DNA from: Arthrobacter sp. 260
Lineage (GTDB): Bacteria > Actinomycetota > Actinomycetes > Actinomycetales > Micrococcaceae
Assembly: GCF_013116745.1 (NCBI RefSeq)
Contig: NZ_JABFOE010000002.1
Span: 248,001-312,000, forward strand
Direction: 5' to 3'
Length of the DNA: 64,000 nt
This document shows, piece by piece, positions 113 to 20,129 of the stretch. The notes under the pieces were generated by a model that made no database searches, was not told the origin of the DNA, and was given only the letters and a program-made list of their open reading frames with translations. Each line of letters starts with the position of its first letter. Position 1 is the stretch's first letter. The position numbers and the translations under genes were made by a program.

Positions 113-201
113 ACCTGCACCCTATCGTCTGCGACGCTGCTGGCGGAGTACCCGCCCGGGCTGCTCGCGCTTAGGTTTCGCCACTCGTCCTGAGATGTTG
201 C

Positions 202-224
202 GTTTCGGTACACCCATACGAAAC
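202..224. promoter_or_regulatory. Inverted repeat upstream of the partial gene
   Basis: GTTTCG at 202-207 and CGAAAC at 219-224 are perfect 6-bp arms separated by 11 bp. The site lies about 90 bp upstream of the ATG at 112 and about 60 bp past the end of the ASCH gene. It could be an operator or a weak terminator stem. Nothing in the sequence decides which. Confidence 0.25.
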
Positions 225-282
225 AGGAAACAGGAATCTCCGGCCCTGTTCTGTGTTTACATGTCGACGTATTGGACCGTTA

Positions 283-3135: not shown

Positions 3136-3164
3136 CTAGACAGATGGCCGGCCCAGATGTCTAG
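3136..3164. terminator. Palindrome at the end of the catabolic operon
   Basis: CTAGACA at 3136-3142 pairs perfectly with TGTCTAG at 3158-3164, and the loop contains the self-complementary GGCCGGCC. It overlaps the stop codon of the dehydratase gene and precedes the accessory patch, so it is a likely transcription end. There is no clear T-run. Confidence 0.5.
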
Positions 3165-4879
3165 CCCTGCAGGAAGCGGAAGTCGCAGCCCTCGTCCGCC
3201 TGGGTTACCTCGGTGACGAAGAGCTTCCGGTAGCCCCGCTCCGGAACCACTTGTGATGCCGGACCCATGGCTTCCTCACGCCTGGCCAGCTCTGCATCGG
3301 ACACCTCCAACTGGATCAGCCGCTGGCTCACGCTCAAGGTGATCGTATCCCCGGTCTGCACCAACCGCAGCGGGCCACCTACCGCCGACTCAGGGGTTAC
3401 GTGCAGGACGACGGCGCCAGCCGCGGTGCCGGACATCCGGCCGTCCGAGATGCGCACCATGTCGCGGACGCCCTGCGAGGCAAGCTTCTTCGGGATGGGT
3501 AGGTACCCGGCCTCGGGCATGCCGGGGGCGCCGACCGGACCGATGTTCTTCAACACCAGCACCGACTCGGCGGTGACATCCAGGTCGGCATCATCGATCC
3601 GAGCTGCCAGGTCCGCGGTGTTCTCGAACACCACCGCAGAGCCGGTGTGTTCCAGCAGCGCAGGGGATACGGCAGCCTGCTTGATGATCGCCCCACCCGG
3701 CGCCAGGTTCCCCCGAAGGAACGCAAGGCTGCCCTCCGGATACACGGGGTTGGACAACGGCCGGATGATGTCCTGCGGAAAGCCGGGACCGGCGTCGTCA
3801 ATCTCCTCACCCAGCATCCGGCCAGTCACGGTCGGCACATCCCGGTGAATCAGCGACCCCAGCTCCCGCAGCACAGCGGGAACCCCGCCGGCACGGTGGA
3901 AGTCCTCCATGTAGTACTTCCCGGACGGCTTCAGATCCACCAGCACGGGCGTCTCAGTGCTCATCCGGTCCAGCTGCTCCAGCGACAACCGGATCCCCAA
4001 CCGACCAGCCACAGCGGTCAGGTGAATGATCGCGTTCGTCGAACCGCCGATGGCCAACAGCACCCGCAACCCGTTCTCGAACGACTCCTGGGTCAGAATG
4101 GTGTCCATCTTCGTCCCGGCAGCCGCCAGGGCAACGGCCTGGGTCCCGGTCGCCTCGGCGATCCGCACCCGGTCGGCCGTGACCGCGGGAGCCGACGCCG
4201 AACCCGGCATCGCAATCCCCATTGCTTCGGTCAGGCAGGCCATGGTGCTGGCCGTGCCCATCACCGAGCACGTGCCGACGCTGCCGACCAGCCGCGAGTT
4301 CACGTCGTCGATCTCTGGTTTGGAAATCTCCCCGCCCCGGAACTTGCCCCAGAATGCGCGACAGTCGGTGCACGCACCCACCCGCTCGCCCCGGTACCCG
4401 CCGGTCAGCATTGACCCGGTCACCAGCGAAATCGCGGGCACTCCCGCCGACGCCGCACCCATCAGCTGGGCGGGAACGGTCTTGTCGCAGCCGCCGATCA
4501 GCACGACGGCGTCCATCGGCTGGGCGCGGATCATCTCCTCCGTGTCCATCGACATCAGATTCCGCAGGAACATGCTGGTGGGTTGCGAGAAGCTCTCGTG
4601 GATGGAGATCGTGGGGAAGTCCACCGGCAACCCGCCGGCGAGCATCACCCCACGCTTCACCGCCTCCAGCAGTGCCGGCATGTTGCCGTGGCACGGGTTG
4701 AACCCGCTGCCCGTGTTGATGATCCCGATCACCGGCCGGTCCAGGGCATCGTCGGAATAACCGGCACCCTTGATGAACGCCTTCCGCAGGAACAGCGAAA
4801 ACTCGGCGTCCCCGTAGTTGGTCAGGCCCTTGCGGATGCCGGTGGCAGGTTTACCAGCGGGGGCAGCGGCGTCACTCAC
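3161..4879 (-). CDS. IlvD/Edd-family sugar-acid dehydratase
   Basis: 572 residues, full length for the family. These enzymes remove water from 2,3-dihydroxy acids using an Fe-S cluster and Mg, giving 2-keto-3-deoxy acids. Three cysteines at the cluster-ligand positions are visible: C63 (NPCHGN), C131 (GGCDKT) and C204 (GTCSVMGTAS). The CDKT motif and the Ser/Lys-rich Mg site region are intact. The GTCxxMGTAST form and the 68/73-residue cysteine spacing resemble the pentonate (L-arabinonate-type) dehydratases rather than biosynthetic IlvD. The gene is last in the long minus-strand operon and overlaps the acyl-CoA dehydrogenase stop by four bases. Its neighbours (SDR, FAH hydrolase, DHDPS-like lyase) support a sugar-acid or hydroxy-acid degradation role. 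The exact substrate cannot be read from the sequence. Confidence 0.88.
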   Translation of the reverse strand: MSDAAAPAGKPATGIRKGLTNYGDAEFSLFLRKAFIKGAGYSDDALDRPVIGIINTGSGFNPCHGNMPALLEAVKRGVMLAGGLPVDFPTISIHESFSQPTSMFLRNLMSMDTEEMIRAQPMDAVVLIGGCDKTVPAQLMGAASAGVPAISLVTGSMLTGGYRGERVGACTDCRAFWGKFRGGEISKPEIDDVNSRLVGSVGTCSVMGTASTMACLTEAMGIAMPGSASAPAVTADRVRIAEATGTQAVALAAAGTKMDTILTQESFENGLRVLLAIGGSTNAIIHLTAVAGRLGIRLSLEQLDRMSTETPVLVDLKPSGKYYMEDFHRAGGVPAVLRELGSLIHRDVPTVTGRMLGEEIDDAGPGFPQDIIRPLSNPVYPEGSLAFLRGNLAPGGAIIKQAAVSPALLEHTGSAVVFENTADLAARIDDADLDVTAESVLVLKNIGPVGAPGMPEAGYLPIPKKLASQGVRDMVRISDGRMSGTAAGAVVLHVTPESAVGGPLRLVQTGDTITLSVSQRLIQLEVSDAELARREEAMGPASQVVPERGYRKLFVTEVTQADEGCDFRFLQG

Positions 4880-6036
4880 CGGAACGCGGGGACGCCGGTG
4901 ATGTGATTGCCCAGGATCAGGGTGTGAACCTCGTCGGTGCCCTCATAGGTCCTGACACTCTCCAGGTTGTTCGCATGCCGCAGCGGCGAGTAATCCAGGG
5001 TGACGCCGTTGCCGCCGAGCATCGCCCGCGCCTCACGGCAGATCGCGATCGCCTCACGGCAGTTGTTCAGCTTGCCCACCGAGATCTGGTACGGCTGCAG
5101 GGTTCCGGCGTCCTTCAACCGGCCCAGCTGCAACGCGAGCAGGGTGCCCTTGTTGATCTCCAGCGCCATGTTCACCAGCTTCTCCTGCGTCAGCTGGTAC
5201 CCGGACAACGGCTTCCCGAACTGCAGACGCTCCTGCGAGTAGGCCAGCGCGGTGAGGTAGCTGTCCCGGGCTGCGCCCATGGCGCCCCAGATGATGCCGT
5301 AGCGGGCTTCGTTCAGGCACTCGAACGGGCCGCGCAGTCCCTTGGCGTTCGGGAGCATCGCACTCTCTGGCAACCGGATGTCGGTCAGGGTGATGTCGCA
5401 CTGGATGGACGCCCGCATGGAGAGCTTCTGCTTGATCGGCGTCGCCACGAACCCCGGACTGTCGGTGGGCACCACGAAGCCGCGGACGCCGCCGTCGGTC
5501 ATCGCCCAGATGATGGCCACCTTCGCCACCGAAGCCAGGCCGATCCAGCGCTTCGCACCGTTGAGGATCCAGTCCGACCCGTCGCGCTTGGCGAAGGTCT
5601 GCATCGCGCCGGGGTCAGATCCGGCGGTCGGCTCGGTCAGCCCGAATGCACCGATCGCGGTTCCGGCAGCCATCTGCGGGAGCCACTCGGTCTTCTGCTC
5701 CTCGGAGCCGTGCTTGTAGATGGCGCTCATCGCCAGCGAGCCCTGCACCGACACGAAGGTCCGCAGGCCCGAGTCGCCGGCCTCCAGTTCCATCGCGGCC
5801 AGTCCGTATTCCACCGACGACTTCCCGGGGCAGCCGTAGCCCTTGATGTGCATGCCGAGCAGGCCCAGCTCGGCCATCTGCGGGACAATCTCCATCGGGA
5901 AGACGGCGTCGTCGTACCATTGGGCGATGTTCGGCTTGATCTCGGTGTCCACGAAGGACCGTACGGTCTCCCGCAGGGTGATCTCCTCAGGGGAGAGGAG
6001 GCCTTCAATACCGATCAGGTCTGACATGTCAGTCAT
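4876..6036 (-). CDS. Acyl-CoA dehydrogenase, glutaryl-CoA dehydrogenase-like
   Basis: About 386 residues from the ATG at 6036 (MTDMSDLIG). A GTG at 6084, overlapping the upstream stop, is a possible longer start. FAD enzymes of this family oxidise acyl-CoA; the glutaryl-CoA branch also decarboxylates to crotonyl-CoA. Visible family marks are the FAD/substrate strand AFGLTEPTAGSDPG, the WILNGAKRWIG block, and the C-terminal RTYEGTDEVH containing the catalytic-base glutamate of the glutaryl-CoA/isovaleryl branch. The overall pattern (LLSPEE...VRSFVDTEI at the N-terminus, ARAMLGGNG near the end) fits GCDH-like proteins. The gene sits between a CaiB-type CoA-transferase and the dehydratase, suggesting an acid is activated to CoA and then oxidised. 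The actual acyl group is unknown. Confidence 0.88.
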   Translation of the reverse strand: MTDMSDLIGIEGLLSPEEITLRETVRSFVDTEIKPNIAQWYDDAVFPMEIVPQMAELGLLGMHIKGYGCPGKSSVEYGLAAMELEAGDSGLRTFVSVQGSLAMSAIYKHGSEEQKTEWLPQMAAGTAIGAFGLTEPTAGSDPGAMQTFAKRDGSDWILNGAKRWIGLASVAKVAIIWAMTDGGVRGFVVPTDSPGFVATPIKQKLSMRASIQCDITLTDIRLPESAMLPNAKGLRGPFECLNEARYGIIWGAMGAARDSYLTALAYSQERLQFGKPLSGYQLTQEKLVNMALEINKGTLLALQLGRLKDAGTLQPYQISVGKLNNCREAIAICREARAMLGGNGVTLDYSPLRHANNLESVRTYEGTDEVHTLILGNHITGVPAFR

Positions 6037-6080
6037 GGTTCTGCTTTCAACTGTTGAGGAAGTCACTGGGGATCCTGCTT

Positions 6081-7274
6081 TCACTGTAGGTGGTGCAGTG
6101 CGGGTACGGCGGGGACGTCGAAGGCGGCACCGGTGTGCTCGCCGAGGAGGGGCGGCGGGCGCCGGTAGCGGGCGGGAGTCCCGGAGAGGTGGATCGGATT
6201 GGCGACCTGCTGGCTGGTCCGCGACCCGTCAGCGTTGGCGATTTCGACGACGGGGGCCAGGCCCAGCGTGTCAGCCAGTTCCAGCGCCTCGACAATCGAG
6301 TTCACCTTCCCGGCCGGCACCCCGGCGACGCTGAGCAGCTCCGACCACTCGGCGGCGGACTTGGACCCCAGCTGTTCTTCCAGCAGGGACTTCAGCGCCA
6401 CCCGGTTAGCGACCCGGTTCGAGTTCCCAGCGAACCGCTCATCGCTGGAAAGCTCGGGCACGCCAAGCACCCGGACCAGCCCCGCGAACTGCTTGTCGGT
6501 CCCGACGGCGACGGCCAGCGGACCATCGGCGGTCCGCAGCGTCTCGTACGGTGCGATGCTCGGGTGCGCGTTGCCCATCCGTTGCGGCGATTCACCGGTG
6601 GCCAGTGTGCTCGAGGCCTGGTTCACCAGCCCCGACAGCAGGGACGACAGCAGGTTCACATCCACCCGCTGGCCCACCCCGGTCTGCTCCAGCGACCGCA
6701 GGGCGGCGAGGATCCCGACGACGGCGTTCTGCCCGGTCACCACATCCACCAGGGCAACGCCGACCTTGCTCGGTTCGGAGTCCAGCCCGCCAGTGACGCT
6801 CATCAGCCCGCCGACGGCCTGCACCAGCAGGTCATAACCCGGCAGGTGAGCGCCGGCGGTGCTGCCGAAACCGGTGATGGAGCAGTAGATCAGGTCCGGC
6901 CGCCGGTCTTTCAGGGAGTCATAGTCCAGTCCGAACCGCTCCATGATGCCGGGCCGGAAGTTCTCGATCACGACATCGGCCGTCAAGGCGATCTCCAACG
7001 CCGCCGCTTGCCCCTCGGGGGTGGTCAGGTCGCACACCACCGAGCGCTTGTTGCGGTTCACGCTGGAGAAATACGTGCCTACCCCGTACTCGTCCACCGG
7101 CGGCGTCCAGCTGCGGGTGTCGTCACCGGACGGGCTTTCCACCTTGATGACGTCGGCCCCGAAATCAGCCAGCATCATCGAGGCAAACGGCCCCGCGAGC
7201 ACCCTGGAAAAGTCGGCCACCTTGATTCCGTCCAGGGGTCCCGCCGGCAATCCGTCGTCGGGTGAGTTACTCAC
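6081..7274 (-). CDS. CaiB/BaiF family III CoA-transferase
   Basis: About 397 residues from GTG at 7274, which follows AGAAAGG and overlaps the end of the FAH gene by eight bases. The open frame extends further upstream, but those residues are out-of-frame FAH sequence. Family III transferases move CoA between carboxylic acids through an aspartyl-CoA adduct. The N-terminal LDGIKVADFSRVLAGPFASM block, LADFGADVIKVE, the NRNKRSVVCDL strand and the PGYDLLVQAVGG segment carrying the expected catalytic aspartate (Y-D) are all present. With the following GCDH-like gene it forms a CoA-activation and oxidation pair like that used for glutarate in other bacteria. Donor and acceptor are not deducible. 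Confidence 0.9.
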   Translation of the reverse strand: MSNSPDDGLPAGPLDGIKVADFSRVLAGPFASMMLADFGADVIKVESPSGDDTRSWTPPVDEYGVGTYFSSVNRNKRSVVCDLTTPEGQAAALEIALTADVVIENFRPGIMERFGLDYDSLKDRRPDLIYCSITGFGSTAGAHLPGYDLLVQAVGGLMSVTGGLDSEPSKVGVALVDVVTGQNAVVGILAALRSLEQTGVGQRVDVNLLSSLLSGLVNQASSTLATGESPQRMGNAHPSIAPYETLRTADGPLAVAVGTDKQFAGLVRVLGVPELSSDERFAGNSNRVANRVALKSLLEEQLGSKSAAEWSELLSVAGVPAGKVNSIVEALELADTLGLAPVVEIANADGSRTSQQVANPIHLSGTPARYRRPPPLLGEHTGAAFDVPAVPALHHLQ

Positions 7275-8166
7275 TACCGCCACTGCCTTTCTGATGGTGG
7301 TCCTCCTGGGCAGACGCTTCCTGATCCACCACCGGGTTGCTGAGCACACCGACGCCGGGGATGCGGCATTCCGCCACGTCGCCCGCCTTGATGTGCACGG
7401 CACCCGGTGTGCCGGTGGAGATGATGTCGCCGGGGTAGAGCGGCATCACCTTGCTGTGGAAGCTGACCAGGTACTCGGGGGAGTACCTCATATTGCCCAC
7501 CACGTTGCTGCGGTGCACCTCGCCGTTGATCACTGTGGACACCTCGACGGCGGCCAGCGAGCCGGCGTCGTCGGCCACCTCCGCTAGGGGCACGATCTCC
7601 GGGCCGAAGGAGAAGAAGCCGGGGAAGTTCTTGGACCGGGTGAGGAACCGGGGGTTCTTCTCCAGGATGTCCTCGGCGGTCTGGTCCAGCAGCGTGACGA
7701 CGCCGGCCACGTAGGACAGCGCGTCCTCCGGCTCCACGTCGCGGCAGTACCTGCCGATGACGAGACCCAGCTCGGCTTCGGCGGTGGTGCGCACGCTCTG
7801 GTGCGGGATGGTGATGTTTTCGCCCGGGCCGATGATGGTGTGGTCGCCCTTGATGAACGACGCCGGCTCATCCGGGACACCCTCGGACAGGTCCGAGGCG
7901 TGCTCCACATAGTTCAGGCCGATGCCCCACAGCATCCGGGGATGCCGGTAGGGGGCGCCGAAGGTCACCGAATCGCGGTCACGGAACACCGCGGTGTCCG
8001 CCGTCTCGGCGAACGACTCCAGCTTCCCGAGCGAATCGGTGGCCAGCAGTTCGAGGAGGTCGCCGGAGAAGCCGGGGATGAGGTCGCGGACCAGCGCGAC
8101 GCCGCGCTCGGGGTGGATCACTGCGGCGAGTTCGTCGCCGCCTTCGCGGACTGAGGCCAGGTGCAT
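7267..8166 (-). CDS. Fumarylacetoacetate hydrolase (FAH) family protein
   Basis: 299 residues from ATG at 8166, eight bases after AAAGAAG; a TTG two codons earlier is less likely. FAH enzymes hydrolyse, hydrate or decarboxylate 2-keto or 2,4-diketo acids with a bound divalent metal. The signature MLWGIGLNYVEHASD (usual form 'G-x-N-Y-x-x-H') and the metal-binding acidic residues of AEAELGLVIG and YVAGVVTLLDQTAEDI are visible, followed by the FFSFGPEIVP and PGDIISTGTPGAV blocks. Members acting on 2,4-diketo-3-deoxy sugar acids release pyruvate, a good match to the dehydratase and SDR genes here. It begins 70 bases after the SDR gene ends, the only clear gap in the operon, so a secondary promoter is possible. 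Confidence 0.88.
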   Translation of the reverse strand: MHLASVREGGDELAAVIHPERGVALVRDLIPGFSGDLLELLATDSLGKLESFAETADTAVFRDRDSVTFGAPYRHPRMLWGIGLNYVEHASDLSEGVPDEPASFIKGDHTIIGPGENITIPHQSVRTTAEAELGLVIGRYCRDVEPEDALSYVAGVVTLLDQTAEDILEKNPRFLTRSKNFPGFFSFGPEIVPLAEVADDAGSLAAVEVSTVINGEVHRSNVVGNMRYSPEYLVSFHSKVMPLYPGDIISTGTPGAVHIKAGDVAECRIPGVGVLSNPVVDQEASAQEDHHQKGSGGSE

Positions 8167-8236
8167 GGTCAACGCTTCTTTCTGTTCAGAGTCGAGAGGT
8201 CGAGAGATTCTTCAGGGTCAACTAGGAGACGCAGGG

Positions 8237-9010
8237 CTAGTACGCGCGGACCAGTCCGCCGTCGCAGCGGATCTGTTCGCCGGTCACGTAGGCGGCGGGC
8301 ACGCTGGCGAGGAACGCGACGACGGCGCCGAACTCCTCGGGCGCACCGTACCGGCCGGCGGGGATGGTCTTTTCGGACGCGGCGCGGGCTTCGTCGGGTG
8401 TGCTGCCGGTCCGCTTGGCCGCTGCGGCGTCGAGCGAGGCCACCCGGTCCGTGTCGATCCGGCCCGGGAGCACCATGTTCACGGTGACGCCGTCGGCCGC
8501 GACCTCGGCGGCGAGGGTCTTCAGGTAGCCGGCGAGCCCGGCCCGGCCGATGTTGGAGAGCGCCAGGTTGGGCAGCGGCTGCTGCACGCCACTGGACCCG
8601 ACGGCGACGATGCGGCCCCAGCCGCGCTCGCGCATGCCGGGCAGCACCAGGTTGGTCAGCCGCATGTGCTGCAGCAGCAGCTGGTGCACGGCGGCGAGGG
8701 CCTGCTCGTCACTGACGTCAGCTGCCCCACCGGGAGGCGGGCCGCCGCTGTTGAGGATCAGCACATCGATCGGTCCGAAGGCCTTCTCGGCCGCCTCGAC
8801 CAGCGCGGCGGGGGCGCCGTCGTCGGTCAGGTCCATCGCGATCCCGACGGCGGAGGGCAGCTTGGCCGCTTCGGCCTGCACCACGTCCTCACGGCGGGCC
8901 GCGAGCACCACGTTGGCGCCCTCGTCGGCCAGCGCTTGGGCGATGGCCAGGCCGATGCCCGAGCTTGCGCCCGGCACCAACACGTTCTTCCCTTTGAGTC
9001 CGGTATCCAT
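8237..9010 (-). CDS. SDR-family protein with altered catalytic residues
   Basis: 257 residues with a short-chain dehydrogenase fold. The usual TGxxxGIG is VPGASSGIG (Pro in place of Thr), and NSGG stands where NAAG/NAG is expected. The Ser of GSSGV is present, but the YxxxK motif reads SNIGR, so both the catalytic Tyr and Lys are replaced. This LSN...R variant is a recognised SDR subgroup annotated as 3-oxoacyl-ACP-reductase-like without the standard tetrad. It may use a different mechanism or have lost reductase activity. The start overlaps the lyase stop by one base (TGATG). In the operon it could oxidise a 2-keto-3-deoxy acid, but the missing residues make that uncertain. Confidence 0.85.
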   Translation of the reverse strand: MDTGLKGKNVLVPGASSGIGLAIAQALADEGANVVLAARREDVVQAEAAKLPSAVGIAMDLTDDGAPAALVEAAEKAFGPIDVLILNSGGPPPGGAADVSDEQALAAVHQLLLQHMRLTNLVLPGMRERGWGRIVAVGSSGVQQPLPNLALSNIGRAGLAGYLKTLAAEVAADGVTVNMVLPGRIDTDRVASLDAAAAKRTGSTPDEARAASEKTIPAGRYGAPEEFGAVVAFLASVPAAYVTGEQIRCDGGLVRAY

Positions 9011-9918
9011 CAGGCAATCTCCTTCACAGCATCAAGGTGGGCGTCGATCATGTCGGCCAGGGCCGGCGGCAACGTGGGCGAGGGCGGGCGGACCGCGGCG
9101 TCGGCGATGATGCCGCGACGGCGGAGGATCTCCTTGCGGACTGCGAGGCCGATCCCGGGCTGGCCCTCGAAGTTGGCCAGCGGCAACCACGGGGCGAACG
9201 CCGCGCGGGCGGCCGGGAAACCGCCGTCGGCGAACGCGGTCAGCGCCGCCTGCAGCCCTTCCGGGTGGGAGAACCCGGTCATGGCCCCGGCAGCACCGGC
9301 GGCCAGTTCATCGAGCAGGCCGACGCCGCCCAGTCCGCCGAAGACCGGCACCGTCGTGGCTGCGGTGAGCGCCGCGATGGGAACGGCCGTCGGAGGTGCT
9401 TCGGATTTCACGGCGCTGATGAACTGGCACAGCTCCAGCACGCTGAGGATCTGAGCGGCGCTGATCTTCACGCCCGAGGCCACCGGGTAGTCCTGGAGCA
9501 CAATCCCGGCGCCCGTGTCGGCGGGGATGACCTCGTTGATCGCTGTCAGGTGCGCGGCGAGTAGCTCCGGGTCGGCGCTGTTGGCCTGCACCATCAGGGC
9601 GCCCAGGTTGCTGCCGGCAGCGGCGACGGCGGTGCGTGCCTGCTCGACGGCGACCGCCGTCGACCGTGCCGACAGGCCGACCACCAGCGGGGTGTCCCCG
9701 GCTTCGTCGGCGACGGTCTGCACAATCAGGGTCTGCTCGGCGGTGTCCAGGGTGACGCCCTCGCCGAAGACGCCGAGGACCACCATGCCGGTGGCGTTCA
9801 GGCCGGTGTAGAGGCGGACCTCGCTGCGGAGGGACTCGGTGTCGACGGCGAAGTCACTGCCGTGGAAGGGCGTGGCGAGCACGCCCCAGAGGCCTTTGGA
9901 AAGAGGTGAAATAGTCAC
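9010..9918 (-). CDS. DHDPS/NAL-family class I lyase
   Basis: 302 residues from GTG at 9918, overlapping the lhgO stop by four bases; AAAGGA lies 12 bases upstream. The longer open frame upstream is antisense-like and out of register with lhgO. The family forms a Schiff base on lysine and splits or dehydrates 2-keto acids. The catalytic tyrosine (LQDYPVASG) and Schiff-base lysine (SAVKSEA) are present, as is the N-terminal GVLATPF. The usual GxxGE is VFGEGVTL, shifted from the strict form, so substrate preference may be unusual. Likely substrates are 2-keto-3-deoxy acids made by the dehydratase in the same operon. It could act as aldolase or as dehydratase. Confidence 0.85.
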   Translation of the reverse strand: MTISPLSKGLWGVLATPFHGSDFAVDTESLRSEVRLYTGLNATGMVVLGVFGEGVTLDTAEQTLIVQTVADEAGDTPLVVGLSARSTAVAVEQARTAVAAAGSNLGALMVQANSADPELLAAHLTAINEVIPADTGAGIVLQDYPVASGVKISAAQILSVLELCQFISAVKSEAPPTAVPIAALTAATTVPVFGGLGGVGLLDELAAGAAGAMTGFSHPEGLQAALTAFADGGFPAARAAFAPWLPLANFEGQPGIGLAVRKEILRRRGIIADAAVRPPSPTLPPALADMIDAHLDAVKEIA

Positions 9919-11153
9919 AGGGATGAGGTGTCCTTTCGGTCGGAGTTGTTCTCGAGTGCCAGCGAGACAATGTGCTCCGCGATGGCGAGGGAGGAGGTGG
10001 CGGCGGGGGAGGGCGCGTTCCTGACGGACAGCACCGAGCCCTGCCGGGTGATCCGGAAGTCGTCGACCAGGGATCCGTCGCGGGTCAGCGCCTGGGCGCG
10101 GATGCCGCGGGGGCCCGGGATGACGTCGTCGGCGGTGATCTCGGGAACGTACTTGCGGGCTTCGGCGACGAACCGGCGCTTGCTCAGCGATCCGAGCATC
10201 TCGGCCGCACCGGTGCGCCAGTGCTGCTTCGCGAAGGACCGGAAGCCCGAGTACATCACCGCGTCCATGAGGTCGCGGGGTGAGATGGTGGACCACTTGT
10301 AGCCTTCGCGGGCCAGGGCGAGCACCGCGTTGGGGCCCACCATCACCTGGCCGTCAGTGGTCGGGGTCAGATGTACGCCGAGGAACGGGTACCGGGGGTC
10401 GGGCACGGGGTACACCAGGCCGCGGACCAGATGCTTGCGCTCGGGGCGGAGCAGGTAGTACTCGCCGCGGAAGGGCACAATCTTGGGGTCGTCGTCGTCG
10501 CCGGCGAGCTTCGCCACCCGGTCCGCCTGCAGTCCGGCGCAGACGATCACCATGTCGTAGGTGTCGGAGGTTTCGGTGCCGCGATGCTTGCCCGTGACCA
10601 CTGTCTGTCCGGCGCGTTCGGTCAGCGCAGTGACTTCGAAGTTGGTGTGGACGGTGCCACCGGCAGCCTCGACATCCATGGCGAGGGAACGGGTGATGGC
10701 TCCGTAGTCAACGATCGCCGTGTGGGGCGAGTGCAGGCCAGAGGTTCCCATGACATGGGGCTCCAGTTCCAGCAGCTCGGCCTGGTTGATGATGCGCACA
10801 CCGGGCACTCCGTTGGCGACGGCACGCTCCATGATGTCGCCCAGCCGGCCTTCCTCGACCGGGTTGCGGGCGACGAGCACCTTGCCGCACTCGTCGTAGG
10901 GCAGGCCCTTCTCTTCGCAGTACTCCTTGAGCATGTCCACACCCTGCCGGCAAAGTTTCGCCTTCAACGAACCGGGCGTGTAGTAGAGCCCGGCGTGGAC
11001 AACGCCTGAATTCCGGCCGGTCTGGTGACCGGCGAGGATGGGCTCCTTCTCAAGCACGGTCACCTCGGCGTCGGGCTGGACCTGCAGCAACCGGCGGGCG
11101 ACGGCGGCACCAACAATGCCACCTCCCACCACTGCGAAACGCGTGGGCGTCAT
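9915..11153 (-). CDS. lhgO: L-2-hydroxyglutarate oxidase family protein (LhgO-like)
   Basis: 412 residues, the normal length. This FAD enzyme of the DAO fold oxidises L-2-hydroxyglutarate to 2-oxoglutarate, usually passing electrons to the membrane quinone pool. The dinucleotide motif VVGGGIVGAAVARRL is at residues 8-22, followed by the LhgO-typical HQTGRNSGVVHAGLYYTPGS and the FRGEYYLLRPE segment. The C-terminal GPRGIRAQA block is also typical. ATGA overlaps with both neighbours place it inside the operon. Its presence suggests the pathway produces or consumes a 2-hydroxy acid, perhaps glutarate-related. Close relatives may accept other 2-hydroxy acids, so the symbol is a family-level call. 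Confidence 0.88.
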   Translation of the reverse strand: MTPTRFAVVGGGIVGAAVARRLLQVQPDAEVTVLEKEPILAGHQTGRNSGVVHAGLYYTPGSLKAKLCRQGVDMLKEYCEEKGLPYDECGKVLVARNPVEEGRLGDIMERAVANGVPGVRIINQAELLELEPHVMGTSGLHSPHTAIVDYGAITRSLAMDVEAAGGTVHTNFEVTALTERAGQTVVTGKHRGTETSDTYDMVIVCAGLQADRVAKLAGDDDDPKIVPFRGEYYLLRPERKHLVRGLVYPVPDPRYPFLGVHLTPTTDGQVMVGPNAVLALAREGYKWSTISPRDLMDAVMYSGFRSFAKQHWRTGAAEMLGSLSKRRFVAEARKYVPEITADDVIPGPRGIRAQALTRDGSLVDDFRITRQGSVLSVRNAPSPAATSSLAIAEHIVSLALENNSDRKDTSSL

Positions 11154-12382
11154 TTTTTCTCCTCCATGGGGGTCAGGGTGTGGTTTGGTTCTCCGGCCGC
11201 AGTCAGCGCCCGCGACCGGCGGATCATCCGCCGCGCCACCGTGAAGGTCACGGCGGCCAGGGCGGCGACGACGGCGGCCGCCAGCCAGGCGGTGTCATAC
11301 GAGGTGGCGGCCGTCAGCAAACCGAACAGCAGCGGACCGGCCGCGGCGCCCAGGGACAGCCCGGTCTGGATAACCCCGGTGGCGGTGGCCGCGTTGGCGC
11401 GGTTGTCCCGGACCACTGCGAAGTGCACCAGGCCGGGCCAGGTCCAGCCGGCACCGTAGGCGAGCAGCGCCCCGAGCACGAACAGCAGCGAACTGGTCCC
11501 CAGGGCGAGCAGCAGGTAGCCGATCACGCCGAGGGCCAGCAGGTTGGTGATCAAGACCAGTGGGCTGCGCTGCGGATACTTGTCCATACCGAGGCCCAGC
11601 AGGATCCGGATGACCAGCCCCAGCAGAGCGGCACCAGCGAACAACAGGCCGGCGGTTCCGGGTGCCATCCCGGATTCCACTGCTGAGTCCACCAGGAACA
11701 CGCCCAGCGAGGTGGCAGCAGCGGCAGCAAACCCCGCGCCCAGGCTCAGCATTACCAGGCCGCCCCGGGGGGTGCCCCGGTCAGCCTTGGGGGTTTCCCC
11801 CGGCTGGGTGGGGCGGGTGCCGGGTGCGCTGAAGAACGCCCAGACCGCAATGGCGATGGCCATCAGTGAGCCGAGCAGGAACGCGTACCGCCAGCCCACC
11901 GCGAGGGCAATCACCGGGACGGCGATCCCGGCGATCATCGAAGCCGCCGGAATGGACGACTGCTTGACCCCGAACGCCAGCCCCAGCCGGTTCGGATTGA
12001 CCGCCCGGGAGATCCCGAGGTTCGCCGACGGCTGGGCCATGGCGTTGGCCAGCCCGCCGACGAACAGGGCGACGATCAGCAGGGCGAACGTCGGCGCCAG
12101 ACCGGCGCCGGCCAGCGCGACGGCGGCAAGGGTTGCCGAAGCGACCATGCCCTTCGCCGCACCGATCCGCTGCACCAGTCCGCCCAGGGGGCGGGCGAGC
12201 ACACCGGACACCGTGAACAGGGTGGCTGCTGCCATCCCCATCTCGGCCGGTCCGATGTCCAGATCCCCGCGGATCTGCACCGCCAACGCACCCAGCAGGA
12301 AGGCAGGAAGCACCCCTGTGGTGGTGACAGAGACGGCCTGCAGCATGGTGACTGCTGCATGCGTCGACGGTGCCTGGGTCAT
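11150..12382 (-). CDS. Major facilitator superfamily transporter
   Basis: 410 residues with about twelve hydrophobic segments. It contains an MFS-like loop (GVLARPLGGLVQRIGAAKG) and the second-half equivalent GLGMDKYPQRSPLV. It overlaps the TRAP permease stop and the lhgO start by four bases each. It is a second, independent transport system in the same operon as the TAXI-TRAP uptake system, so it may import a related substrate or export a product. Substrate is not predictable. Confidence 0.88.
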   Translation of the reverse strand: MTQAPSTHAAVTMLQAVSVTTTGVLPAFLLGALAVQIRGDLDIGPAEMGMAAATLFTVSGVLARPLGGLVQRIGAAKGMVASATLAAVALAGAGLAPTFALLIVALFVGGLANAMAQPSANLGISRAVNPNRLGLAFGVKQSSIPAASMIAGIAVPVIALAVGWRYAFLLGSLMAIAIAVWAFFSAPGTRPTQPGETPKADRGTPRGGLVMLSLGAGFAAAAATSLGVFLVDSAVESGMAPGTAGLLFAGAALLGLVIRILLGLGMDKYPQRSPLVLITNLLALGVIGYLLLALGTSSLLFVLGALLAYGAGWTWPGLVHFAVVRDNRANAATATGVIQTGLSLGAAAGPLLFGLLTAATSYDTAWLAAAVVAALAAVTFTVARRMIRRSRALTAAGEPNHTLTPMEEKK

Positions 12383-14532
12383 GGAGCGGTGGGATCCGTT
12401 GTCTTCGCTGGGGCAGCGTCAACCTTGGCGGCATCCGCGACGGGTGGGTCGGTGTCCGGATCATACGGGTGCCGCTTCCGACCGATGAGGTGCACCACGA
12501 CGCCGACGGCGATGATCGCCACACCGATGCCGATGTTCACCGGGTCAAGGGTGAGCAGCGGCAGGGAGCCGATGGCCAGGATGACCCGTTCCGGCCAGCG
12601 TGCCGGTCCGAGCAGCCAGCCGCCCGTGGAGACCGCGAGTGCTGCCACGGCGAGGAGCGACACTGAGAAGGCCAGCGCCACGGTAGCGACACCGCCCTGC
12701 AGCAACAGTCCGACGCCGTCTCCGGAGAGGACGAAGATGAACGGCACCAGGAAGGCGGACAGGGTGTACCGCCAGGTGAGCCACATGGTTTTGATTGGTT
12801 TGCCGCCGGTGATCGCCGATGCTGCGAACGGGGAGAGCGCCGTCGGCGGCGACACCTCGCTGAGTACCGAGTAGTAGAAGATGAACATCGCCGCGGCGAA
12901 GCCGGGAACGCCCACGTCCTGCAGGGCGGGTCCGATGATCACCCAGGAGATGATGAAGCTCGCCGTAACCGGTACGGCCAGGCCCAGCAGGATCACGGCG
13001 ATGGCCGAGAAGATCGCGGTGAGCAGCAGGCTGCCACCGGCGAAGTCGACGATGATGCTCGCCAGCTTCAGGCCCAGACCGGTCAAGGTCATGATGCCGA
13101 CGATCAGGCCGGCCGCAGCCATCACGGGGATGACTGAGAGGGCGCCAGTGGCACCGGTGGCCAGGGCGTCGAAGATCTTCCGCGGAGTCATCCAGGATTC
13201 GCGGTCGAAGAAGCTCAGCACGAACGCGAGGATGGTGGCGAACACCACGGCGCGGAAGGGGGTCATGCCGAAGGCCATGAACACCACGATGGCGGCCAGC
13301 GAGCTGAAGTGGTAGCCGAACCGCAGCAACAGCTTGCCGACCGGTTTGACGTCCATGGCGACGGCCTTCGTCTTGAATCGGCGGGCGTCCATTTCGATGG
13401 CGAGGATGATGCCGAAGTAGTAGAGCAGGGTGGGGATGGTGGCCCAGATCAGCACCTCAAGGTAGGACACCCCGAGGAGCGCGGCAATGATGAACGCCGC
13501 CGCGCCGAGGGTGGGAGGCGACATGATGGCGCCGATACCCGCGGCGGCGAGAATACCGCCACCGTGTTCCTTCGGGTAGCCAGCCTTGCGGAGCAGTGGC
13601 CAGGAGATGCCACCGAGGGTCACGGTGGTGGCGACGCCGGAACCGGAGACGGTACCGAGCAGGAAGCCCGCCAGGGTGACGGTGCGGCCGGGGCCGGACT
13701 TTGACTGGCCGAACGCCGAGAAGGAGAGGTCAATGAAGAACTTGGTGGCGCCCGAGGCGCCCAGCACCGCACCGTAGACGGTGAACAGGATGATGTACGT
13801 CGCGGCGACGTCGGTGGGTACCCCGAAGATGCCCTGGGTGCCCATCACGTTGTGACCCACCAGCCGGATCCAGTCGAATGAGGACGTGTTGAACGGCGCC
13901 GGAATGTACGGACCCCAGTAGGCGTAGGCGAAGAACCCGATCACCACGAGGGGCACCAGGATGCCGACGGTGCGCCGGGCCGCTTCCAAAACCACGAGGA
14001 TAGCGATGACGCCCATGATCAGGTCAAGGTAGGTGGGGGTGATAGCGCGGCGGAAGAACGGGTCCCAGTCGGAGATGATGTAGGCGAACGGCACAATGGC
14101 CACGATCGCGCACACCCAGTCGAGCAGGTGCGGGTTATCGGACTTGCCCGCTTCCTTGGCTTTCGCTGACCTGCCCCATCCCCGGTAGACGAGGAACGTC
14201 AGGGACAGGCCGATCATCAGGAACGCGGGGAGGTAGAACTGCGTCGCCATCGGGTTGAACACCCAGTACAGCGCGAACAGGGACAGTCCCGCGCCGCCGA
14301 TCTTGACCACCATGGCCGGGATCCCGGTCAGCTGCCGGGCGGGTTTCTCCGCCTCGAACTCGGCGATCAGCGCCTCTTCGTCGATCTCTTCGCTGCGCTG
14401 GATCGGGTTGATCGGCGCGTCGTCGGGTATTCGCGCTTCGTCGCGCCGTGCCGGATCGATTGCCTCACTGGGGGTGGGGCGGTGCTGCTTGCCGGCCTTG
14501 AGGGCGCCGTCGCCGTCAATTCGCTCGGTCAT
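12379..14532 (-). CDS. TAXI-TRAP transporter fused permease (DctQ-DctM type)
   Basis: 717 residues from ATG at 14532, which sits behind AAGGAGACCCC and overlaps the DUF1850 stop by four bases; the open frame continues 19 codons further upstream without a better start. The first ~75 residues are cytoplasmic and charged. A small-subunit-like membrane block follows, then the large DctM-type permease with many helices (LLGTVSGSGVATTVTLGGI, GGGILAAAGIGAIMSPPTLG). These are the conserved glycine-rich re-entrant regions of TRAP transporters. Substrate uptake is driven by an ion gradient rather than ATP. The binding protein is two genes upstream. Known TAXI systems carry dicarboxylates or amino-acid-like acids, consistent with an acid-degrading operon. 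Confidence 0.92.
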   Translation of the reverse strand: MTERIDGDGALKAGKQHRPTPSEAIDPARRDEARIPDDAPINPIQRSEEIDEEALIAEFEAEKPARQLTGIPAMVVKIGGAGLSLFALYWVFNPMATQFYLPAFLMIGLSLTFLVYRGWGRSAKAKEAGKSDNPHLLDWVCAIVAIVPFAYIISDWDPFFRRAITPTYLDLIMGVIAILVVLEAARRTVGILVPLVVIGFFAYAYWGPYIPAPFNTSSFDWIRLVGHNVMGTQGIFGVPTDVAATYIILFTVYGAVLGASGATKFFIDLSFSAFGQSKSGPGRTVTLAGFLLGTVSGSGVATTVTLGGISWPLLRKAGYPKEHGGGILAAAGIGAIMSPPTLGAAAFIIAALLGVSYLEVLIWATIPTLLYYFGIILAIEMDARRFKTKAVAMDVKPVGKLLLRFGYHFSSLAAIVVFMAFGMTPFRAVVFATILAFVLSFFDRESWMTPRKIFDALATGATGALSVIPVMAAAGLIVGIMTLTGLGLKLASIIVDFAGGSLLLTAIFSAIAVILLGLAVPVTASFIISWVIIGPALQDVGVPGFAAAMFIFYYSVLSEVSPPTALSPFAASAITGGKPIKTMWLTWRYTLSAFLVPFIFVLSGDGVGLLLQGGVATVALAFSVSLLAVAALAVSTGGWLLGPARWPERVILAIGSLPLLTLDPVNIGIGVAIIAVGVVVHLIGRKRHPYDPDTDPPVADAAKVDAAPAKTTDPTAP

Positions 14533-15050
14533 GGGGTCTCCTTGATGTCTAGCAGGATGAAGGGCTGATCGTCGTCGACCAGGGTCCACAGCGAAACGGG
14601 CGCTGCTCCGGGCAGGTGGAGGGTGCGTTCACCAAGATCGGTGGCGGCAATGGAAAGTTCGGTGAACACAGCGGGGTGCGCGGGGTCGGGGTCGACCACG
14701 TACTTCCGCCGGTCGGTGGGTTCCGCGGGGGTGGGGGCCCCGGGGACGCCGTAGTACTCTTCGAGCACTGCGAGCTGGTCGGCAGCGATCTGGTCGAGCC
14801 GGAAACTGCCGTCGGGGAGGACTGTGTAGCGTTCCTCGGCAACTGTTTTGTAGATGGAATTGCGGTAGCTGACCGCGAAGGTGTCCCCGGGGAGGGCCAC
14901 CGAGGCCAGCCCGCCGTCGTCGTTGGTGATCACGATGCTGCGCTCGGAGGCTCCCTGATCGGGGGCGTCCTGGGCAGCAACCGCGAACGCCCCACCACCC
15001 AGCGTGCCAAGGCACACCAGGACGGCGACGACGACGGCGGGCTTGCGCAT
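14529..15050 (-). CDS. DUF1850 protein of the TAXI-TRAP system
   Basis: 173 residues with an N-terminal signal or anchor helix (VVVAVLVCLGTLGGGAFAVAA) and an exported beta-rich domain. The segment FAVSYRNSIYKTVAEERYTV is the DUF1850 hallmark (Y-R-x-S-x-Y-x-T-x-x-E-E). DUF1850 genes habitually lie between TAXI binding proteins and fused TRAP permeases, as here. It begins six bases after the binding-protein gene ends and overlaps the permease start. The molecular role is not known; it is probably an accessory of the transporter outside the membrane. Confidence 0.85.
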   Translation of the reverse strand: MRKPAVVVAVLVCLGTLGGGAFAVAAQDAPDQGASERSIVITNDDGGLASVALPGDTFAVSYRNSIYKTVAEERYTVLPDGSFRLDQIAADQLAVLEEYYGVPGAPTPAEPTDRRKYVVDPDPAHPAVFTELSIAATDLGERTLHLPGAAPVSLWTLVDDDQPFILLDIKETP

Positions 15051-15056
15051 CAGTGC

Positions 15057-16076
15057 TTAGCCTGCGGCTTCGTCGAAGTACCGCTGGGCGCCGGGGCAGG
15101 TTTCGACGTAGGGGATGTCGCCGGCGGTGGCGGCATCCAGTTCGACGGCTGCGGGGTGCACCTGGGTGAGGGCTTCCACGTTGTCGAAGATCGCTGCGGT
15201 GATGTTGTATTGCAGCTCCTCATCCATGTCAGGGCTGGCGACGAGGATGTTCGGTGACGCAATGGCTGAGACTGCCTCGGTCTGGCCCTCGTAGGTATCG
15301 GCCGGAATGTCTTCCTCGACGTAGTACTCGCCGTATTCGGTGGCGAGCTGTTCGGCGTACTCGCCGATGTTGAGGAGGTTCATGTCGCCGTCGCTGGCCA
15401 GGTCGATCAGGGCGCCGGTGGGCAGACCACCGGACCAGAAGCCGGCGTCGATGGTGCCGTCGCGCAATGCCGCAACCGTCTCGGCTGCGCCGAGCTGACG
15501 GCGCTCGAAGCCTGACTCGGGGTCAATGCCGGCAGCCTCGAGGATGCGCAGTGCTGCGACCTCGGTGGCCGAACCGGGAGCGCCGACCGAGACGACCTTG
15601 CCTTCCATGTCAGCGACACCCTCGATGCCGGTGCCGTCAACGGTGACGGCCTGCATGAAGTTGTTGTAGGTGTTGCCGAGCGAGCAGATCTCGATGGGGT
15701 TGCCGTCGAAGTCGTTGACACCCTCCACCGCGTCGGAAACGACGTCGCCGACCGCGAAGGCCAGCTGCGCAGAGCCGTTTTCGATCAGCAGCATATTGTC
15801 CACGGAGGCGTTGGTCTCCTGGACGGTGGCGTCGTAGCCCTCGATGTTGTCGCGGATCATGGTGGCGAAGCCGCCGCCGAGGGGGTAGTACACGCCGCCG
15901 GTGCCGCCGGTGGCGATGGAGAGCATGCCGCCATCGGCGCCGCCACTGGCGTCACCGCCGCCGCTTCCTCCGCCGCTGGTGTCGGGGCTGCCGCAGGCGG
16001 ACAGGAATAGTGCGGGGACGGTGAGTGCCGCTGCGGCAAGCCGGACCCTGCGACGGTGCAGTGGTGAGGTTGTCAT
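15057..16076 (-). CDS. TAXI-family TRAP substrate-binding lipoprotein
   Basis: 339 residues. A lipoprotein signal ends at LFLSACGS with the lipidated cysteine near residue 28, followed by a Gly/Ser/Asp-rich linker. The mature part starts LSIATGGTGGVYYPLGGGFA, the TAXI family signature ('T-G-x-x-x-G-x-Y-Y-P-x-G'). It captures the substrate outside the cell and delivers it to the TRAP permease encoded downstream. It overlaps the CMD gene by four bases. The abundance of acidic residues matches other actinobacterial members. Confidence 0.93.
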   Translation of the reverse strand: MTTSPLHRRRVRLAAAALTVPALFLSACGSPDTSGGGSGGGDASGGADGGMLSIATGGTGGVYYPLGGGFATMIRDNIEGYDATVQETNASVDNMLLIENGSAQLAFAVGDVVSDAVEGVNDFDGNPIEICSLGNTYNNFMQAVTVDGTGIEGVADMEGKVVSVGAPGSATEVAALRILEAAGIDPESGFERRQLGAAETVAALRDGTIDAGFWSGGLPTGALIDLASDGDMNLLNIGEYAEQLATEYGEYYVEEDIPADTYEGQTEAVSAIASPNILVASPDMDEELQYNITAAIFDNVEALTQVHPAAVELDAATAGDIPYVETCPGAQRYFDEAAG

Positions 16077-16816
16077 GAGTGTTCTCCCTTGGTGGTGATG
16101 GTGGTGGTGAGTGATTGCGGATGGGTAGTGGGGGTGGAGTCTGGCGTCTCCACGGCTGGCGTCTCCACGGCTGGTGCCTCCACGGCGCCGGCGGCGAGCA
16201 ACCCGGACAGTGCCCGGTAGTAGCCCACCAGGACTGACAGTTCGGTGATGCCGGAGTGGCCGTGGTGGGCGAGTGTGGTGGCGTGGTCCTCGGTGGAGAC
16301 GGTCCGGCCGTTCAGCAGGGCGGCGGTGAAGGTCAGGGCCGAGCGTTCGTCATCGGGCAGGTCTGCGGGGAGGTGGCCGCCGCGCAGGCTCTCCAGTTCG
16401 TCGACAGAGATGCCGACGGTGAGGGCGACCCGGCTGTGGGCGTACCACTCGTAGGCCGAGGAGCGTTCGGCGGCGACGGCGCAGATCACCAGTTCCCGGG
16501 TGCGGTTGGACAATTCCCCGCCGAACCGCAGGGCGGCACCCAGTGCCTGGACGGCGTGGCCGATCTGCGGTGCGTAGAGCAGGGCATTGAACGGGCCGGC
16601 CAGATGGCCATCATCGTCGACCACCAGGAACGGTCCGCCCGCGCGGGGCGGGCCGGCGATCGTGTTGTAGAGGGCGAGCTGCTCGTCGGTCAGCGCTTCG
16701 GGTGCCAGCAACGGGAAGCGACCGCCGTGCGCCTTCTCGGTCTGGGGCTCAGGCTGCTGCTGACCTGGCAGTGGTTGGTTAGACAAGGGTCCGCCCGCCG
16801 TCGACGTAGAGCACAT
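16073..16816 (-). CDS. Carboxymuconolactone decarboxylase (CMD) family protein
   Basis: 247 residues from ATG at 16816, which lies 38 bases inside the SDR gene; TTG at 16786 gives only an eight-base overlap and is equally possible, and neither has a strong ribosome site. The all-helical CMD core is at about residues 65-170: LSNRTRELVICAVAAE then AYEWYAHSRVAL, with the Glu and His of the family but no CxxC, so it is not an AhpD peroxidase. The C-terminus carries a short tandem repeat (VEAPAVETPAVETP) that looks disordered. It probably acts on a lactone or keto acid of the operon's pathway. Confidence 0.78.
   Translation of the reverse strand: MCSTSTAGGPLSNQPLPGQQQPEPQTEKAHGGRFPLLAPEALTDEQLALYNTIAGPPRAGGPFLVVDDDGHLAGPFNALLYAPQIGHAVQALGAALRFGGELSNRTRELVICAVAAERSSAYEWYAHSRVALTVGISVDELESLRGGHLPADLPDDERSALTFTAALLNGRTVSTEDHATTLAHHGHSGITELSVLVGYYRALSGLLAAGAVEAPAVETPAVETPDSTPTTHPQSLTTTITTKGEHS
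16142..16188. repeat. 15-bp tandem repeat, three units, inside the CMD gene
   Basis: The unit GGCGTCTCCACGGCT is repeated about three times (the third copy reads GGTGCCTCCACGGCG). It encodes the Val-Glu-Thr/Ala-Pro-Ala repeat at the C-terminus of the CMD-family protein. Such a repeat can change length by slippage without breaking the frame. Confidence 0.7.
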
Positions 16817-17525
16817 GGCCGGTGACGAACGCGGCCTGACGGGAGGCGAGGAACAGGGCCGGGCCGGTGAGGTCGCCGGTCGATCCCAGCCTCCCCGCGG
16901 GGACCAGCGAGGTGTAGTTCTCGCGGACTCCCGGCTTGTCGAGGTGCCCGCGGGTCAGGTCGGTTTCCACGTAGCCGGGGGCGATGGCATTCACGGTGAC
17001 CCCGTCGGCTGCCCACTCGCGGGCCATCACGCGGATCAGCTGGTTGAGGCCGCCCTTGCTGGCGGCGTAGGGGCCGTGGTCCGGGTGGGCGAGGAGGCTC
17101 GACACGGAGGAGCAGTACACCTGGCGGCCGTACCCGGCGGCCACCATCAGCTTCCCGGCGGCCCGGCCCAGGCGGAAGGCGCTGGTGAGGTTGACGGTGA
17201 GCATGCGGTCCCAGTCGTCATCGGTGGTGTCGAGGATGGGGACCCGGTGGTTGACGCCCACTGCGTGCATCAGTACGTCGAGGCCGCCGAGCTCCAGGGC
17301 CGCGCGGGCAATGGCGTCCTCGCAGCCAGCGGTGGTTGACAGGTCGATCTCAAGCGCCTGGACTCGTGGGTCGAGGGCCGCGAGACCAGCTGGATTGACG
17401 TCGGCGACCATGACGAGAGCCCCGGCGTCGGCGAAGGCTGCGGCCAGTGCGCTGCCGATCCCGCCAGCACCGGCCACAAGGACCCGCTGGCCGTCCAGGC
17501 CGAGCCAGTCACTCATGAAGATCAT
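16779..17525 (-). CDS. Short-chain dehydrogenase/reductase, first gene of the operon
   Basis: 248 residues; ATG at 17525, with another ATG at 17516 giving MSDWLGL. It is a canonical SDR: cofactor motif VAGAGGIGSALA, the catalytic Ser in CSSVSS, YAASKGGLNQ with Tyr and Lys, and the C-terminal TGHVLYVDGG. An acidic residue after the second strand (VADVN) suggests NAD preference. As the first gene behind the predicted operator it may do the first oxidation of the imported hydroxy or sugar acid, or the oxidation of the 2-keto-3-deoxy intermediate. Confidence 0.9.
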   Translation of the reverse strand: MIFMSDWLGLDGQRVLVAGAGGIGSALAAAFADAGALVMVADVNPAGLAALDPRVQALEIDLSTTAGCEDAIARAALELGGLDVLMHAVGVNHRVPILDTTDDDWDRMLTVNLTSAFRLGRAAGKLMVAAGYGRQVYCSSVSSLLAHPDHGPYAASKGGLNQLIRVMAREWAADGVTVNAIAPGYVETDLTRGHLDKPGVRENYTSLVPAGRLGSTGDLTGPALFLASRQAAFVTGHVLYVDGGRTLV

Positions 17526-17625: not shown

Positions 17626-17642
17626 TTGGATACTGTATCCAA
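17626..17642. promoter_or_regulatory. Predicted operator for the GntR regulator
   Basis: TTGGATACTGTATCCAA is a perfect 8-1-8 palindrome lying 101 bases upstream of the operon's first gene and 48 bases beyond the gntR stop. Its form (ATAC-n-GTAT) is typical for FadR/FCD-type GntR proteins. On the minus strand it covers a possible -10 (TACAGT) with TTACAT 17 bases upstream, so binding would block the operon promoter. Confidence 0.7.
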
Positions 17643-17689
17643 TTAAGTCGCGGAATGTAACGACGGTCACAAATATTACGTGATGGGGC

Positions 17690-20123: not shown

Positions 20124-20129
20124 AGTCGT

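Follow-up and report, generated by a model that had tools for sequence, protein, structure and literature searches.

What compound does a soil actinobacterium break down with a set of genes that resembles in part a sugar-acid pathway and in part glutarate and 2-hydroxyglutarate metabolism? This question is raised by a 64,000-nucleotide stretch of Arthrobacter sp. 260 (contig NZ_JABFOE010000002.1, positions 248,001 to 312,000), here called the window, in whose own numbering all positions are given. An earlier note, made from the sequence alone, had described a thirteen-gene unit at 3161-17525 and had known of no pathway using both gene groups. The unit and its families were borne out: thirteen minus-strand open reading frames (ORFs) run co-directed and mostly overlapping from 17525 down to 3161, and Pfam and NCBIfam scans give the order SDR1, CMD, TAXI, a small protein, TRAP, MFS, LhgO, a DHDPS-like protein, SDR2, FAH, CaiB, GCDH and IlvD. 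In the open-licence full-text literature we found no description of this gene set, the searches directed at it yielding just a Gordonia genome paper, and a described pathway with both gene groups was not seen there. The cluster is a real, conserved catabolic operon of soil actinobacteria that probably imports and breaks down a hydroxylated organic acid. A hydroxylated dicarboxylate, which the same note had named beside a branched sugar acid as a substrate that would fit, gains support as a likely class from the LhgO residues, from a KdaD-like DHDPS protein devoid of the glutamates that could repel a dicarboxylate and from the TAXI-TRAP transporter. The strongest new point is the pair formed by the KdaD-like putative dehydratase and an SDR with Ser and Arg at its catalytic positions.

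The DHDPS-superfamily protein (PF00701) was listed as ORF 9010-10296, which begins too early; the likely start is 9918, giving a gene at 9010..9918 on the minus strand. Its model (pLDDT 94.0) has 3dz1 as nearest fold, followed by the KdaD structures 7c0c and 3fkk. According to the KdgD/KdaD study (PMC13398020), Lys172 of CnKdaD forms the Schiff base, Glu174 serves C3, Gln144 serves the C1 carboxylate, Glu201 acts on C5 and Glu200 probably resets Glu201; glutamates near the entrance could, according to the same source, repel a dicarboxylate. Among 103 matches at 40% identity or more, Q142, K171, E173 and M213 are kept in every one, as in KdaD, and E200/E201 of CnKdaD are replaced by L196 (102/103) and G197 (103/103). 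Because of this replacement of the glutamate pair we class the protein as KdaD-like only and not as KdaD. Dehydration at C4 without deprotonation at C5 is the reaction predicted from these residues. A role as 4-hydroxy-2-oxoglutarate aldolase was considered and is not our leading view, since Gln142 takes the place of the catalytic Tyr of 3cpr in the alignment and the Glu of KdaD is kept; some doubt is left by Y144, two residues from Q142, which is kept in 103/103 matches and where KdaD has Ala.

In a search of genome contigs, SDR2 directly follows the DHDPS-like gene in 70 of the best 80 loci, which are biased to close relatives because they are the best-scoring of at least 573 confirmed candidates. 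The remaining 10 have no SDR2 at 40% identity or more on the same strand, one of them (L073) having one on the opposite strand. SDR2 (8237..9010, minus strand) does not pass the test for a canonical SDR, both the Tyr and the Lys of YxxxK being replaced. Alignment with SDR1 puts Ser152 and Arg156 at these positions in 102/102 matches (at least 40% identity and more than 200 residues; the matches are not independent, as certain genomes are represented twice among the loci, from two sources), and Asn153 is kept in 101/102. Seventeen other SDR matches in the same loci have Tyr and Lys in 16 cases and Ser and Lys in one. The glycine motif for nucleotide binding is partly kept. With Foldseek, the solved folds closest to the SDR2 model (pLDDT 94.5) were Burkholderia SDRs (41-44% identity) for which no function is stated. 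AerF of Microcystis (6jha, 6jhb) came at rank 7-8 among the solved folds with 37% identity, a likeness at the level of the fold; in one of the AerF entries NADPH is bound together with the 2-oxo acid 4-hydroxyphenylpyruvate. The frequent pairing of the two genes would be explained if SDR2 were a C=C reductase acting on an enoate from the DHDPS-like protein. No match was obtained in the open-licence full-text literature for the SDR subgroup name that we presume to apply.

The gene for LhgO (9915..11153, minus strand) lies directly upstream of the DHDPS-like gene and its product passes the NCBIfam equivalog cut-off of the L-2-hydroxyglutarate oxidase family (NF008726, 547 bits, cut-off 299), being the single LhgO of the genome at E 1e-100. 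In Drosophila L2HGDH, Ser88, His92, Tyr289, Leu299, His302 and Arg393 are reported to bind 2-oxoglutarate (PMC10726252), and the window protein has all six residues. The first five are present in 30/30 matches at 44% identity or more, and the Arg in the 29/29 that cover it, one alignment stopping short. Judged from these residues, the substrate would most naturally be expected to be a 2-hydroxy dicarboxylate with five carbons. Uptake would fall to the TAXI solute-binding protein (15057..16076, minus strand; TIGR02122, 276.6 bits, cut-off 84), which has a lipobox-like start and the VYY motif, and to a fused TRAP permease (12379..14532, minus strand; TIGR02123, 451 bits, cut-off 321). Between them lies a small protein (14529..15050, minus strand) with no Pfam or NCBIfam match, presumably DUF1850-like, whose position is conserved; an MFS transporter follows (11150..12382, minus strand; PF07690, 4.2e-39). 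VcGluP is reported to need a Gln for glutamate (PMC11574862). By our own reading of the TtGluBP alignment, the window TAXI protein has Val at this position, and 31 of 32 matches have Val, Leu or Thr, the other having Gln; the replacement makes glutamate a less likely ligand.

We tentatively propose a regulated operon that would take up a hydroxylated organic acid through TAXI-TRAP, most likely a C5 dicarboxylate of the glutarate type, and funnel it through a 2-oxo acid, substrate and reactions alike being deduced. LhgO would oxidise an L-2-hydroxy acid, and IlvD, where present, would dehydrate a 2,3-dihydroxy acid, both leading to a 2-oxo-3-deoxy acid. With this acid the KdaD-like protein may form a Schiff base and eliminate the C4 hydroxyl; as the C5-deprotonating residues of KdaD are missing, the product would be a 2-oxo-3-enoate, whose C=C bond SDR2 would perhaps reduce with NAD(P)H. 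An example would be the sequence 4-hydroxy-2-oxoglutarate, 2-oxoglutaconate, 2-oxoglutarate. SDR1 and FAH may form a second outlet, by cleavage of a 2,4-dioxo acid or by decarboxylation, and CaiB with GCDH may convert a glutarate-type acid to crotonyl-CoA. More doubtful is the further idea that DHDPS and SDR2 together make up a reductive deoxygenation module not described before, which would turn 4-hydroxylated glutarates into 2-oxoglutarate here, FAH and the CoA genes providing branches for related acids, and be wired into other acid pathways elsewhere. Acid catabolic operons are common in themselves; this two-gene module recurs in Actinobacteria and, more distantly, in Proteobacteria, across several different operons, and carries in the records examined no annotation beyond 'dihydrodipicolinate synthase family', 'SDR family oxidoreductase' or the like. 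Should the proposed chemistry hold, it would be a new reaction type for both families and would correct routine annotation. A testable substrate class is also offered for an orphan TAXI-TRAP transporter.

Within the family Micrococcaceae, the DHDPS-like protein was detected in 20 of 197 genomes (E 1e-20), 11 of them, including the window genome, at 71% identity or more and 9 at 53-57%. The FAH protein was found in 11/197 genomes (E 1e-60), the same 11, and the unit is conserved within the family; the named relatives that carry it are Arthrobacter strains. The ten other genomes (loci L027-L036) preserve the gene order with losses, namely of MFS in L030, L032, L034 and L035, of LhgO in L028, of CaiB and GCDH in L030, and of SDR1 and CMD in L034 and L035. 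In the last two LhgO has moved, a 45% homologue standing after GCDH. IlvD at 87% identity or more ends four of the 11 clusters (the window, L027, L028 and L031). Over 17 Micrococcaceae clusters, counted once L056 and L058 had been removed as copies of L032 and L036 in a sequence comparison of L027-L062 that did not include the window, LhgO and/or IlvD is present in all 17; IlvD is present in 9 and absent in 7 of the 16 with a readable end, and each of the clusters without LhgO (L028, L052, L057) has IlvD. The more distant LhgO (44-45%) that follows GCDH in L034, L035 and L062 adjoins a Mn-catalase gene. This gene comes right after the LhgO homologue (L034:15945-16826, L035:15952-16833, L062:16311-17192, with a second copy in L062), which would fit an oxidase making H2O2.

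The two halves of the unit are separable modules, and IlvD is optional. Locus L132 carries the regulator, SDR1, CMD, TAXI, the small protein, TRAP, MFS, LhgO, SDR2, CaiB and GCDH without DHDPS or FAH, L134 has SDR2-CaiB-GCDH and L133 has CMD-SDR2-GCDH. In L030, LhgO-DHDPS-SDR2-FAH is followed by nothing of CaiB/GCDH, a GCDH lying elsewhere in its genome. Other arrangements include TRAP-TAXI-GCDH-CaiB-LhgO-DHDPS-SDR2 in the Nocardioides-type loci L060 and L061. A Mycolicibacterium locus (L104) reads IclR, CaiB, an ECH-like protein, a 4HBT thioesterase, TctC, TctB, a 524-aa protein that is probably TctA, an AbrB-family protein, CaiB, LhgO, DHDPS, SDR2 and FAH. In an Actinophytocola metagenome-assembled genome (L059) the set consists of an enolase-superfamily protein, IlvD, a 2-hydroxyacid dehydrogenase, CMD, LhgO, DHDPS, SDR2, FAH, TAXI, TRAP and MFS. 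In Arthrobacter, Rhodococcus and others (L023, L024, many of L069-L130 and part of L037-L045) we also observed a second type of operon, composed of a cupin-HTH regulator, MFS, an FAD oxidoreductase (PF12831), CaiB, ECH, DHDPS, SDR2 and an ALDH that is nearest to 2,5-dioxovalerate dehydrogenase with a score under that model's cut-off. Alphaproteobacterial DHDPS-SDR pairs (L047, L051, L163) stand beside an amidohydrolase, an Asp/Glu racemase and peptide or amino-acid ABC transporters. At L046 (genome G079), a second, distant DHDPS (~32%) with SDR2 (46%) and a DUF1932/NAD_binding_2 gene is divergent from a TAXI-TRAP set that is 76-81% like that of the window.

Upstream of the unit, in the same place in L027-L036, lies a GntR/FCD regulator gene (17690..18361, minus strand; PF07729, 3.8e-24; PF00392, 1.4e-14), separated from it by a gap of 164 bp. 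In ten aligned gaps (the window and nine relatives) there are 24 invariant columns, all of them within two elements of this promoter footprint. One is TGTGA-N6-TTACA (17656..17671, minus strand), all ten bases of which are invariant in 10/10 gaps and which we take to be CRP/GlxR-like. The other is a perfect 17-bp palindrome, TTGGATAC-N-GTATCCAA (17626..17642, not assigned to a strand), a candidate operator. It is the sole match in the window at up to 2 mismatches, with none in 100 shuffles, and the one site at up to 1 mismatch in the 3.9-Mb draft genome of 193 contigs, and consequently no co-regulated gene hints at the substrate. All 14 relatives' gaps that were scored, three further loci being skipped for want of gap coordinates, match 13-16 of the 16 palindrome positions; base shuffles reached the observed score in 0/1000 cases for 13 gaps and in 1/1000 for L052. 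Within the unit, overlaps of 1-17 bases occur at 8/12 junctions with the starts chosen here. Spacers are 6 bp between TAXI and the small protein, and 44 bp (CaiB-GCDH) and 70 bp (SDR2-FAH) at the two widest; the size of the SDR1-CMD junction varies with the CMD start chosen. Between 2600 and 18800, the two terminator-like sites both fall within coding sequence and shuffles give more (mean 6.2), and the single promoter-like match is on the opposite strand and not above chance. The conserved candidate operator region argues for one regulated unit, short of proof of one transcript. Near the regulator gene, 19065-20933 is occupied by two genes of the same strand, one for an HxlR-type regulator and, just downstream of it, one for a luciferase-like monooxygenase. 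At the start of the window (1-4000), two steps of 2 kb have a GC content of 0.56-0.59, as compared with ~0.66 beyond them, and an acquired segment may have its boundary here.

The genes for the remaining proteins likewise lie on the minus strand. IlvD (3161..4879; NF004784, 849 bits, cut-off 539) is nearest among solved structures to 8ej0 (551 bits) and the L-arabinonate dehydratase 9evv (520 bits), and SDR1 (16779..17525, start 17525 or 17516; PF13561, 2.2e-56) passes the YxxxK test with YAASK. The CMD-domain protein (16073..16816; PF02627, 1.8e-10) has an uncertain start at 16816, 16786 or 16711. The FAH-family protein, a hydrolase or decarboxylase (7267..8166; PF01557, 5.4e-50), keeps His89, Asp92, Glu130, Glu132 and Asp161 in 30/30 matches, and its best solved relative is HpaG (1gtt, 156 bits against 99 bits for the L-2,4-diketo-3-deoxyrhamnonate hydrolase 8gsr). 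The CaiB-type CoA-transferase of family III (6081..7283) has the solved relatives 4ed9 (330 bits) and 9br6 (271 bits). The GCDH-like protein (4876..6036; 3swo, 533 bits) keeps the Arg of an (L/I)R motif in 40/40 aligned rows and YEGT in all 38 rows that reach it, which we take to be the positions of the carboxylate-binding Arg and the catalytic Glu. Such proteins occur in 143/197 family genomes (E 1e-100), with one in the window genome. An unusual oxidase was considered for GCDH, as it has WIG where four solved GCDHs have WIT, a motif presumably on the flavin side, and was set aside: WIG is found in all 37 Micrococcaceae rows, other gene settings included, while WIT stands in the three rows of Nocardioides type, which makes WIG a trait of the lineage.

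Several observations weigh against the proposed funnelling through a 2-oxo acid by way of DHDPS and SDR2. SDR2 occurs without DHDPS, together with CaiB and GCDH (L132, L134) or with GCDH (L133), and on plasmids of Pantoea, Rhizobium, Ideonella and Arthrobacter with Ser and Arg still present. The scheme does not explain these cases. Y144 of the DHDPS-like protein could have a different part in catalysis. The parallel with AerF depends on AerF being, as we assume, an NADPH-dependent double-bond reductase in aeruginosin biosynthesis. CaiB is under the cut-off for succinate-glutarate CoA-transferase (SUGCT; NF052585, 376 against 750 bits), although this is its best NCBIfam model. Neither CMD nor SDR1 has an evident role, and both are absent from the clusters of L034, L035 and L062. 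The complementarity of LhgO and IlvD could be chance, as it rests on three clusters without LhgO that look related. With regard to the plasmids, six SDR2 homologues, three of them proteobacterial without a DHDPS neighbour, have Ser and Arg in 6/6. Those on Pantoea, Rhizobium and Ideonella plasmids (L158, L159, L160) have no DHDPS annotated within 6 kb, the Rhizobium one adjoining an RraA-family gene. On a plasmid of Arthrobacter sp. NicSoilE8 (L162), a hydroxyglutarate oxidase, an SDR2 homologue (58%), ALDH, MFS and acyl-CoA dehydrogenase lie within 12 kb, again with no DHDPS annotated. No assigned pathway emerged from these plasmid contexts.

The loss and gain of modules would also be expected if, instead of forming one linear pathway, LhgO, DHDPS-SDR2-FAH, CaiB-GCDH and IlvD each acted on different small acids with a transporter and a signal in common, an arrangement that we consider possible. 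It would account for L132 without DHDPS and FAH, for L030 without CaiB and GCDH and with a GCDH elsewhere, for the optional IlvD, and for the GCDH homologues of ~80% identity that are paired in other genomes with a CaiB of 52-57%, often with ALDH. Against separate acids stand the joint presence of SDR2, TAXI, TRAP and LhgO in either half-cluster, the single copy of the palindrome in the genome, and the single GCDH and single LhgO of the window genome (E 1e-100). The same loci speak in part against the earlier note's reading, which separate conservation of the two halves was to refute: L132 and L030 do each carry one half, yet both keep the same transporter, regulator, LhgO and SDR2. That note had also equated the first gene group with a diketo-hydrolase sugar-acid route, in which IlvD would yield a 2-keto-3-deoxy aldonate, an SDR would oxidise C4, and FAH would split the resulting 2,4-diketo acid, with pyruvate and a hydroxy acid as products. 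The proximity of IlvD to sugar-acid dehydratases, the canonical SDR1, the 99-bit match of FAH to 8gsr and the recurrence of IlvD with FAH in L059 and L115 speak for this route, but it is weakened because SDR2, the usual DHDPS partner, has Ser/Arg for the catalytic Tyr/Lys in 102/102 matches. IlvD is moreover absent from 7/16 readable clusters, FAH is nearer HpaG and is retained in L034, L035 and L062, where SDR1 is gone (L034 and L035 have another SDR, at 30%, upstream of the regulator gene), and the CoA genes would be left unexplained. We regard the equation as not upheld and the route as unlikely.

Two further possibilities are more improbable still. The CoA genes could act upstream, a dicarboxylate being activated by CaiB, dehydrogenated by GCDH, hydrated and released as a 2-hydroxy acid for LhgO, DHDPS and SDR2. 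Such an order is suggested by the Mycolicibacterium core, where CaiB, the ECH-like protein (27%), the 4HBT thioesterase, TctC/TctB and a second CaiB stand together, and by the Nocardioides-type loci L060, L061 and L063 with GCDH-CaiB. However, the window cluster has no hydratase, and GCDH normally decarboxylates, while hydration of glutaconyl-CoA would give a 3-hydroxy acid; we hold this route to be very unlikely. Equally slight is the chance that SDR2, instead of being a reductase, catalyses a non-redox reaction or completes the DHDPS-like dehydratase as its structural partner. The loss of the catalytic Tyr/Lys, the fixed Ser/Arg, the Asn153 and the place beside DHDPS would agree with it, but the partly kept glycine motif, the NADP(H) complexes among the nearest solved relatives and the occurrence of SDR2 without DHDPS would not.

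The proposed intake of a glutarate-type hydroxylated acid and its funnelling through a 2-oxo acid can finally be compared to known systems. Glutarate breakdown is reported to proceed via CsiD and LhgO in Escherichia coli and Pseudomonas putida, and in P. putida also via glutaryl-CoA dehydrogenase (PMC5974017, PMC6667623, PMC6265302), and LhgO neighbourhoods with LhgR are described as holding csiD and gab genes or a GntR gene (PMC8206213). The window shares with the csiD-lhgO route an LhgO above the equivalog cut-off with all six substrate residues, whereas its LhgO sits in a TRAP-DHDPS-FAH operon; a scan of 20 ORFs of the window (283-21563), which did not extend to the remaining genome, gave no match to CsiD. 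With the glutaryl-CoA dehydrogenation route (SUGCT-like CaiB and GCDH) it has in common the Arg/Glu motifs of GCDH and SUGCT as best CaiB model, and it differs in the CaiB score below cut-off, in WIG instead of WIT and in having no glutarate semialdehyde gene in the cluster. The non-phosphorylating L-rhamnose/L-fucose route 3, with an SDR 4-dehydrogenase and a hydrolase (PMC11199699), uses the same gene types, IlvD, SDR and FAH, but the window operon has a conserved SDR without catalytic Tyr/Lys, an optional IlvD and a FAH nearer HpaG. The closest comparison for the new pair is KdaD, with which the DHDPS-like protein shares the fold, the Schiff-base Lys, the catalytic Glu and the C1-binding Gln, and from which it differs in an identity of 24-25% in the fold search, in Leu and Gly in place of the C5 glutamates, and in SDR2 as its usual neighbour.

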